DNA of 64,000 bases from Corallococcus sp. AS-1-6. Lineage in GTDB: Bacteria > Myxococcota > Myxococcia > Myxococcales > Myxococcaceae. Positions 54,596 to 56,802 of the stretch are shown here, one piece after another (the first letter of the stretch is position 1; every line of letters begins with the position of its first letter). The DNA is taken from positions 434,001 through 498,000 of the forward strand of contig NZ_JAIQDE010000002.1 in the NCBI RefSeq assembly GCF_020037015.1. The letters are read 5' to 3'. The notes under the pieces were generated by a model, which saw only the letters and a program-made list of their open reading frames with translations, made no database searches and was not told where the DNA came from. The position numbers were made by a program, and so were the translations under genes.

Positions 54596-54946
54596 TCAGC
54601 CGTGGCGGATCATCCCGGCGGCCTGCGACAGGCGGCGGCGCAGTTGCGTCACCACCTCGTTCAGGTCCTCCAGGCGCTGGAGCACGTGCAGGTTCTCGCC
54701 CGCGTTCATCAGGGCGACCGGCGTCAGCGTCTCGCGGTGGAGGGCCAGGAGCAGGTCGTAGAAGTGCGCCTGCACGTCGCCCAGGGCATCCAGGCCTTCG
54801 CGGAGGTCGTCCTCTACGAAGTCCAGGAGGACGGTGGCGTCCTCACGCGCAGGCAGCGTCCGGGCCAGACGCTCCACCGCCCCGCGGACGGGGTCGGTAC
54901 GGCGCAACATCGCGGGGGTGGCGAGGGCTGCGACGGGAGGGGCCAT
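54596..54946 (-). CDS. Small helical protein of unknown function
   Basis: 116 residues from ATG at 54946 (MAPPVAALATPAMLRRTD). It is almost all helix, with heptad-like Leu spacing (VLLDFVEDDLREGLDALGDV, FYDLLLALHRETLTPVALMN, LQRLEDLNEVVTQLRRRLSQ), suggesting a helical bundle or coiled-coil dimer. There is no signal peptide or catalytic motif, and I do not recognise the family. Its promoter must lie in or next to the 120-bp repeat array immediately upstream. Confidence 0.65.
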   Translation of the reverse strand: MAPPVAALATPAMLRRTDPVRGAVERLARTLPAREDATVLLDFVEDDLREGLDALGDVQAHFYDLLLALHRETLTPVALMNAGENLHVLQRLEDLNEVVTQLRRRLSQAAGMIRHG

Positions 54947-54990
54947 GCCTAGGACGCTACAGGCCCGTAGCGTCCGGTCAATTTTCCCAA

Positions 54991-55335
54991 CCCCCGCCCG
55001 CCGGTGCGAAGGGCCGCCCCGCCAGAGGCGCAGGTCGCGAACCTGTCCGACTGTCGGACAGGTTCTCGCCATGCCGGGCCGGCAGGTGCAGCCCATGTGG
55101 TCTGGCCTTCCCCGTGGCCGCCGGGGCGAAGGGCCGCCCCGCCAGAGGCGCAGGTCGCGAACCTGTCCGACTGTCGGACAGGTTCTCGCCAAGCCGGGCC
55201 GGCAGGTGCAGCCCTTGAGGTCTGGCCTTCCCCCCGCCCGCCGGTGCGGAGGGCCACCCCGCCAGAGGTACGCGTCGCGGACCTGTCCGACTGTCGGACA
55301 GGTTCTCGCCAAGCCGGGCCGGCAGGAGGAGCCCA
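54991..55335. repeat. Array of three 120-bp tandem repeats, each with a 25-base palindrome
   Basis: Units begin at 54991, 55111 and 55231 and align base for base at exactly 120-bp spacing; the third is truncated after about 105 bases. Each unit has a palindrome with arms AACCTGTCCGAC and GTCGGACAGGTT around a central T: 55040-55064, 55160-55184, and 55280-55304, where one end base differs. Flanks are also shared (GGGCCGCCCCGCCAGAGG, TTCTCGCCAAGCCGGGCCGG, TCTGGCCTTCCCC). The region is non-coding: the frames give the same short peptide on both strands because of the palindrome. It could be a binding-site array, a REP-like element or structured RNA. Confidence 0.9.
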
Positions 55336-55389
55336 GGACGCATGGCGCCGCGCCCATCACGGGCAGGGAGCGGCGGCGCGGGGCCCCCT

Positions 55390-56802
55390 TCAGCGCGCGG
55401 GCCCCGCGGCACCGCCTGGCGCGGCCACGGGAGCCGTGGCGGGCGCGGCGTTGGCCGGGGCCGGGGTGGCCGGCAACGCGATGCCCGGCGAGGAATTGAG
55501 CGGCGCGGGCGTGCCCACCAACGGCGTGGGCGTGCTGGTGTTGAGCGGCGCGGGCGTGCCCACGATGGGCGAGGCCGGCGTGCCGGAGGACTGCGACAGC
55601 GGCGGCACCGTGGAGGGGATGCCCGGGCTCACCTGGGTGGTCCCCACGAAGGTGTTGAAGTCCGGCGCGGACACCTGCGGCGCGGTGAAGCCCCCCACGG
55701 ACACGCCCGCCACCGTCGGCGGCGTGGCGAACGTCCCCTGCCCCACCGTGGCCGTGGAGCCCGGCGACACGCCCGACACCACCGGGGGCGGATTGGTGGG
55801 CGCCGAGGGCGCGAACGAACCGCTGAATGTCTCAGGCCCCGCTGAAGGCAGCGCGGGCGCCGAGGGCAGGATGACCGTCGTCGTCCCGGCCGCGCCCGCC
55901 CCCCGGGACACCGCGCCGGTCGCCGGCCCCGCCGTGGTCGCGACGCCCGTTGTCCCCGCCGTGCCGCTGCCTCCCGTGCCCTGCGAGAAGCGCGGCGCGG
56001 GCATGGGCGCCACCGCCGCCGGGAACGCCGTGGGCGACACCGGCGTCAATACCGCGAGCGACGAGGGCAGATCCCCCGTCGTGGGCACCACCTCCACCGA
56101 CGGCACCCGCGTCCCCTCCACCTCGATGGAGACGTTGTCGAAGAGGAACTGGATGAACCCGCGCGGCTCCGCTTGCGGCGGCAGGTTCCACACCACCACG
56201 ACCACCTCCGCGTCCCCGGGCCGCGCTTCGCGCAACAGCCGCTTCGTGTCGTCGTCCGCGTACGTGCCCGCGTCCAAGGCCGCCGCGTGCACCAGCGCCG
56301 AGTCCGTCAACAGCGCCCCGTTGCGCCACACGCTGCCAATGCCCCAGACGGCCATCGCCGCGTGCGCGCGCGTGGTGGCACGCCAGCCAATGCCTGTCTC
56401 ACCGTAGATGGGCGTGCCCATCAGCACCCCGCCCTCGATGAGGTGCGGCGGCGGTGGAGGGAGCGGCCCGGCGGGCGCTGGCGACATCGCCTGGGCTGGC
56501 GGGAAGCCCGCCTGCGTCAGCTCCACGCGGTACTCGGCGCCACCCACGCGCAGGCTCGCGGAGAGCCGCGCCTTGTCGCCGAAGGTCGCGCTCGACACCC
56601 CGACCCGGTCCTGCACGGAGAGCGATACCTGCCCCGTACCGCGCTCGGTCAGGTCACCGAATGGAAGCGAACCCTGGAAGAAGTAACCGTCCGGCTGCTC
56701 GGTCCTCGCGCTGGCCTCCCGGCCCTCGAACGTGACCCCTTCGCCCCCTGGCGCCGCCGCCAGGACACCGGACAGCAAGATGCTCGTGATTGGACCCGCC
56801 AT
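55390..56802 (-). CDS. Low-complexity exported protein of unknown function
   Basis: 470 residues; ATG preceded by GGGAGG. A signal-like N-terminus (GPITSILLSGVLAAAPGGEG) is followed by a beta-rich domain to about residue 245 (GQVSLSVQDRVGVSSATFGD, EVVVVVWNLPPQAEPRGFIQ). The last 220 residues are Pro/Ala/Thr/Ser/Gly-rich with an imperfect repeat (VGTPAPLNTS, VGTPAPLNSS). There is no MYXO-CTERM tail. The first half may be a surface domain and the second a wall-spanning stalk; both are inference. No family is recognised. It lies between the repeat array and the DUF507 gene. Confidence 0.75.
   Translation of the reverse strand: MAGPITSILLSGVLAAAPGGEGVTFEGREASARTEQPDGYFFQGSLPFGDLTERGTGQVSLSVQDRVGVSSATFGDKARLSASLRVGGAEYRVELTQAGFPPAQAMSPAPAGPLPPPPPHLIEGGVLMGTPIYGETGIGWRATTRAHAAMAVWGIGSVWRNGALLTDSALVHAAALDAGTYADDDTKRLLREARPGDAEVVVVVWNLPPQAEPRGFIQFLFDNVSIEVEGTRVPSVEVVPTTGDLPSSLAVLTPVSPTAFPAAVAPMPAPRFSQGTGGSGTAGTTGVATTAGPATGAVSRGAGAAGTTTVILPSAPALPSAGPETFSGSFAPSAPTNPPPVVSGVSPGSTATVGQGTFATPPTVAGVSVGGFTAPQVSAPDFNTFVGTTQVSPGIPSTVPPLSQSSGTPASPIVGTPAPLNTSTPTPLVGTPAPLNSSPGIALPATPAPANAAPATAPVAAPGGAAGPAR

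Follow-up and report, generated by a model that had tools for sequence, protein, structure and literature searches.

Three tandem units of 120 bp, each carrying a 25-base palindrome, occupy positions 54991 to 55350 of a 64,000-nucleotide stretch of the Corallococcus sp. AS-1-6 genome (the whole stretch that was analysed is hereafter called the window). Comparison of this array with related sequences suggests that it probably belongs to a dispersed REP-like hairpin repeat family, non-autonomous in nature, whose copy at this site was multiplied locally by tandem duplication. In the mechanism that we propose, elements would be copied to new places by a putative trans-acting factor that recognises the hairpin, and copies arriving in genes or promoter gaps would be removed by selection. 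At some sites, slippage or unequal recombination would then amplify the element in tandem along with its neighbouring DNA, a process that would have generated the three 120-bp units at the window site.

The array in the window and its neighbouring genes

Self-alignment delimited unit 1 (54991–55110, the reference copy), unit 2 (55111–55230) and unit 3 (55231–55350), which can be aligned without gaps. TRF analysis reported a period of 120, 2.9 copies and a score of 578, and placed the end of the array at 55335. An earlier note on this DNA had described three exact 120-bp repeats. The three ungapped units are present, but 'exact' was an overstatement because, over 120 bp, identity to unit 1 is only 94% for unit 2 and 84% for unit 3. 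Differences between units amounted to 7/120 (units 1 and 2), 10/105 (units 1 and 3) and 14/105 (units 2 and 3). The 25-mer AACCTGTCCGACTGTCGGACAGGTT consists of 12-base arms around a T and is located at 55040–55064, 55160–55184 and 55280–55304. It is constant save for one end base, as previously noted: the sequence is the same in units 1 and 2, and the copy in unit 3 opens with G in place of A. The further claim that the palindrome looks selected could not be established from the window array alone. Only 1 of the 15 variable columns falls within the palindrome, which accounts for 25 of 105 columns, and the palindrome is thus not significantly less variable than the rest of the array (Fisher p = 0.11).

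Chance is ruled out as the origin of the array by counts of the 21-base core of the palindrome. This core was matched three times in the 64-kb window compared to an expectation of 0.03, and the 9.5-Mb host genome contains 57 exact and 186 near copies and no copy of the reversed pattern. A simple local minisatellite with a palindrome in it by coincidence is highly improbable; tandem duplication has clearly occurred in place, and its period depends on the locus, but the same 25-mer is found at many unlinked loci with differing spacing, as well as in other genera. The array also does not have the organisation of a CRISPR, as the DNA between the palindromes is itself repeated in the window array and, by eye, in other arrays. 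Rfam gave three matches, every one far under its gathering score.

The intergenic placement described in the earlier note was confirmed. The array is upstream of a minus-strand gene at 54596–54946, at a distance of 45 bases from its start codon (54946). It is also downstream of a second minus-strand gene at 55390–56802, whose stop codon (55390) is just beyond the array. These genes encode proteins of 116 and 470 aa, respectively, neither of which has a Pfam match. The 116-aa gene was matched in all 16 genomes of the genus, whether the array was present or not. A 254-aa minus-strand frame (54596–55360) containing a repeated TCPTVGQV motif spans the entire array and probably represents the 116-aa gene with a spurious extension; arrays of this type can yield spurious open reading frames in annotation. 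A separate 9-bp inverted repeat (GGACGCTAC/GTAGCGTCC) was observed at 54952–54975, six bases upstream of the start codon of the 116-aa gene. The adjoining sequence GGTCAATTTT is identical in 16 orthologous sequences and the right arm of the inverted repeat is nearly so, and this structure is possibly an operator or a leader hairpin.

The dispersed family and its element

When up to four mismatches were allowed, 36 copies of the core were present in host contig C22, which contains the window, and 51 in 700 kb of genome G059, compared to 0 and 2 for the reversed pattern. The exact core was found in 16 of 145 genomes of the order. A scan of 195 genomes of the phylum, using a degenerate 25-base pattern with one mismatch allowed, yielded matches in 24: all 16 Corallococcus genomes (6 to 256 copies), all six genomes of genus g3, which we take to be Archangium-like (6 to 37 copies), one genome of genus g7 (4 copies) and 1 of the 27 genomes of genus g19. 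This last genome, G120, contains 11 near-consensus copies that may have been acquired horizontally; the other 26 contain none. An exact 23-base pattern was present in at least 93 stretches among the matches listed, in records from Corallococcus, Hyalangium versicolor and the Myxococcaceae MAG PMG_225. No match to the repeat was found in the phage, plasmid and viral collections searched. The earlier note had proposed counting the palindrome in this genome and in other myxobacteria, with its absence elsewhere as a refutation. Many copies, mostly intergenic, were found, and absence elsewhere is contradicted by the near copies in the host genome and by the presence of the palindrome in other genera. 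In an older report, a Myxococcus repeat was reportedly named RMX. A search of the open-licence literature found no paper title naming the present repeat; the available text of PMC6306037 does not mention repeats or palindromes, and the sole palindrome passage in the portion of PMC8538405 at hand concerns CRISPR.

Two Corallococcus clades differ in copy number. The host, G057–G061, G063, G069 and G070 contain 89–256 copies, and 8 of these 9 genomes contain more than 100. In the lower-copy clade of the site tree described below, G062, G064–G067 and G071 contain 6–21 copies, and G068, which groups here, contains 81. These clades are probably the published Groups A and B, judging from the available part of PMC6306037, as six genomes that were matched to named strains fell on the expected sides. 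This contrast between nine high-copy genomes and the other seven amounts to a natural series in which the factor responsible could be sought.

The anatomy of the element was determined using 189 copies from two genomes, picked by no more than four mismatches to the core. Their consensus is AA-CCTGTCCGAC-T-GTCSGACAGG-TT(T), in which the AA and TT were outside the search pattern. With one copy taken per cluster (126 clusters, which may include one possible Hyalangium locus), weak mirrored conservation extended to ~42 bases on each side of the centre and was near zero further out, so that an element length of ~84 bp is likely. These alignments suggest an element composed of a 25-base near-perfect hairpin and weakly conserved GC-rich arms that are mirrored at the consensus level. 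For the first palindrome of the window (centre 55052), the family-wide information content places the approximate span of one element at 55010–55094. The predicted DNA fold of the bare 25-mer has a stem of 11 bp closed by a loop of 3 bases (z −5.6), and predicted RNA folds of the 120-bp unit gave z-scores of −1.9 for the plus strand and −3.4 for the minus strand. When the palindrome was considered as a series of 8-base half sites, 238 of 251 cases were two-unit palindromes, 13 were one-unit and none were longer; a slippage ladder of half sites was rejected on this distribution.

Sequence subfamilies differ between lineages. Among the matches listed, AACCT arms are widespread in Corallococcus, AACTG arms form a second subfamily in G057, G063, G060, G058 and G068 as well as in five of the six g3 genomes, and AACTT arms dominate in the g3 genomes G046 and G047. 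In addition, most listed copies of the Archangium-like genomes G044 and G045 have a TGG/CCA centre with the stem kept. One tentative scenario, possible although not the one that we would expect, is that in one Corallococcus clade the ~84-bp repeat spread, without a Y1/RAYT transposase, until each genome contained 89–256 near-consensus copies. It would have done so via a putative factor that recognises the hairpin and that changed its preference from lineage to lineage (AACCT, AACTG and AACTT arms). The repeat would also have expanded in place into long tandem arrays.

Several results count against the REP-like reading. Compensating changes were absent in the 189 copies from two genomes; pairing equalled the expectation at positions 1–12 and was below it at positions 13–15. 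Flanks paired with their own partner no better than with that of another element (z of 0.6 for 126 elements and 0.7 for 12 elements from g3), and a wider pairing scan of the 126 clusters identified isolated positions only. Among 385 core-anchored copies, a symmetric excess was present at positions 8–9 (277 versus 235 expected), mainly from the AACTG subfamily, which contributed 14 of the 23 non-consensus symmetric copies; the ±4 pair was mismatched in 77 of the 385 (20%). Within arrays (21 pairs from 14 loci, one evidently misaligned pair being retained), mismatches were 8.5% in the palindrome versus 20% in the flanks, but the fair figure for the palindrome is ~17% because the reference copies were picked intact, and the difference was not significant (p = 0.07). 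Selection on RNA or hairpin structure within Corallococcus is thus unsupported by the pairing statistics, the wider scan or the own-versus-cross duplex energies.

The absence of compensatory pairing in Corallococcus is in keeping with a different explanation, in which the palindrome would be the double-stranded site of a dimeric DNA-binding protein (an operator, nucleoid or partition protein) and several dimers would be loaded on an array. In Corallococcus, conservation of the core GTCCGACWGTCGGAC continues through its centre, albeit among copies picked by similarity to the core, and the arm letters at positions 8–9 are mostly CT, CG, TT or TG. We nevertheless consider a protein-binding site rather unlikely. 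The centre is replaced by TGG/CCA, with retention of the stem, in the two Archangium-like genomes described above, and 26 of the 27 genomes of the related genus g19 are without a match. The genomic placement of the copies, described next, also bears on this explanation.

Genomic placement, orthologous sites and transposase search

Gene calls were made with a simple gene finder written for this analysis. In 630 kb of host contig C22, all 10 clusters (no more than three mismatches) were outside called genes; these genes cover 88% of the sequence. A larger set, drawn from six sources, comprised 129 clusters with 353 copies, and 16 of these copies were inside called genes. Gene orientation was analysed for 92 of these clusters, once 33 that lacked a called neighbour and 4 that lay in genes had been excluded, against a background of 1,107 gaps of at least 60 bases. 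Convergent gaps contained 30 of the 92 clusters (33%) compared to 125 of 1,107 background gaps (11%; Fisher p 2e-7), and divergent gaps contained 10 clusters (11%) compared to 334 background gaps (30%; Fisher p 3e-5). These p-values are only nominal because orthologous clusters stayed in the set. Clusters were also nearer to gene 3' ends than to 5' ends (medians of 87 versus 211 bases).

Depletion from divergent gaps, which bear promoters, argues against a protein-binding site, as does the finding that in 12 of 16 genomes the 116-aa gene is present but no copy can be recognised at the site. The protein-binding array raised in the earlier note is therefore disfavoured as an operator, and an operator of the 116-aa gene was rejected as the main reading on the same two grounds.

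The convergent-gap enrichment and the proximity to 3' ends are also what would be expected of RNA hairpins at transcript 3' ends, acting as bidirectional terminators or mRNA stabilisers and retained because genes benefit. A hairpin is predicted on both strands, with an A-run before the stem and a T-run after it. In co-directional gaps the centre base in the sense orientation was A in 88 copies, T in 59, G in 2 and C in 1; this split favours the RNA hairpins, but arrays may inflate it, and we did not rely on it because array copies are not independent. The three RNA hairpins suggested in the earlier note are structurally possible according to the predicted DNA and RNA folds, but terminator prediction gave no intrinsic terminator call on the palindromes, and the consensus has merely two to three T residues after the stem. 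Moreover, termination does not need 13 tandem copies, site occupancy varies between species, and compensatory changes are absent in Corallococcus. We conclude that RNA hairpins of this kind are an unlikely explanation for the family.

Orthologous sites were compared to determine how the dispersed repeat is distributed among genomes. At the window site, 4 of the 16 genus genomes contain copies: 3 in the host, 1 in G059, 1 in G063 and 11 to 13, mostly 60 bp apart, in G069. The other 12 have no copy at up to five mismatches. A tree of the site placed the host, G059 and G069 together, with G061, which has no copy, as their sister and G063 elsewhere. This arrangement makes repeated gain or loss likely but not firm, because node support was 0.58 to 0.86 and G069 was represented by a partial sequence. 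Of 11 clusters of host contig C22 that were compared to G059, 10 could be scored, and all 10 had copies between the corresponding anchors in G059, two host singletons being weak matches. Copy number differed at 8 of these 10. As array positions are largely common to the sister genome, no case is made for recent jumping. Some host arrays are missing in other genomes; for example, three further genomes are without copies between the anchors of the array at C22:388647. A region of ~2.7 kb without a called gene (C22:519341–522027) holds several palindrome clusters, and the anchor distance of its main array is 1,142 bases in the host and 4,479 in G059. Arrays of this type could be used as strain markers.

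Five loci were aligned to identify junctions, and neither a clean empty/filled junction nor a target-site duplication was found, which counts against the REP-like reading. The mobile REP-like element proposed in the earlier note fared differently in its two parts. Its REP-like kind is borne out by many intergenic copies, position bias and lineage-specific copy numbers, and its movement is not. A search for an autonomous element bounded by two palindromes yielded nine intervals of 0.6–4 kb, six of which contained no called gene, and this candidate was set aside on that listing of intervals.

REP-like hairpins are usually attributed to a RAYT transposase, and Corallococcus has many copies with no such enzyme detected. 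PF01797 (Y1_Tnp) gave no match in the 16 Corallococcus genomes at E ≤ 0.001, with controls positive in 5 of 14. At E ≤ 5, weak matches of 10.8 to 15.9 bits, none above the cut-off, were found in 6 of the 16 genomes, the host having none, and controls were positive in 10 of 14. Of the six weak Corallococcus frames retrieved, four (L348, L349, L350 and L353) did not look like transposases on visual inspection. Y1 matches were present in four of the six g3 genomes (22.6 to 26.1 bits, cut-off 23). For one of these g3 Y1 proteins, 310 aa long, the Pfam score was 22.2 bits where the cut-off is 23, and the NCBIfam model for REP-associated transposases gave 50.9 bits where the cut-off is 80. When used as a query, this protein identified relatives in 50 of 145 genomes of the order, including all six of g3 and all four of g6, and none in the 16 Corallococcus genomes, in which 15 of 19–39 candidates per genome were scored. 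A divergent Corallococcus enzyme could have been missed by these searches.

The core palindrome was absent within ~1.5 kb at all eight g3 loci with Y1 matches (L354–L361, ~3.2 kb each). These loci include a divergent Y1/RAYT-like transposase family with an HFHLLVW motif (L355:1267–2286 and L358:1342–2286), which is present as many full and partial copies in g3 and g6. The transposase at L358 has on either side an inverted repeat of 30 bases (80% complementary) and tandem repeats of 13 bases. In genus g6, the palindrome was found in none of the four genomes and transposase relatives in all four. Thus, the presence of the transposase and that of the palindrome are uncoupled among the genomes searched. 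As Corallococcus is rich in palindromes without a detected transposase and g6 has the opposite pattern, the link between the two is testable by comparison.

Comparison with known repeat systems

The family fits the known REP-like kind, yet it is without the usual tags or a detected RAYT transposase. It consists of many dispersed copies of a short palindrome that are extragenic and under-represented in divergent gaps. According to the available text of PMC3733652, REPs are mostly intergenic and follow coding regions, chiefly in gaps whose flanking genes are unidirectional or convergent. Like the GTAG/CGTC-tagged REPs in that text, the Corallococcus repeat is short, palindromic, mostly intergenic and present in high copy, and has the same placement bias. 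Unlike them, it is not enriched for GTAG or CGTC, which occurred at or under background frequency within 14 bases of the palindrome (318 sites). Its conserved region is also longer (~84 bp compared to 20–40 bp in the same source), and its arrays are head-to-tail with a locus-specific period, whereas the text at hand stresses neighbouring units in opposite orientation.

The portion of PMC2817692 available to us describes RAYTs as having an obligate association with REPs, which flank them. In contrast to the REPs described there, no RAYT was found in the 16 Corallococcus genomes and no core at the eight g3 Y1 loci. The Corallococcus repeat does resemble these RAYT-associated REPs and BIMEs in its abundance in the high-copy clade and in a sequence that varies between lineages. 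The REPIN and MITE-like elements covered in the accessible part of PMC3116915 differ from the Corallococcus repeat in that neither a parent transposon nor terminal repeats nor a target duplication could be identified for the latter, its mirrored arms being weak and no junction being resolved at the five loci. Like those elements, the Corallococcus repeat is small, palindromic, dispersed and apparently non-autonomous.
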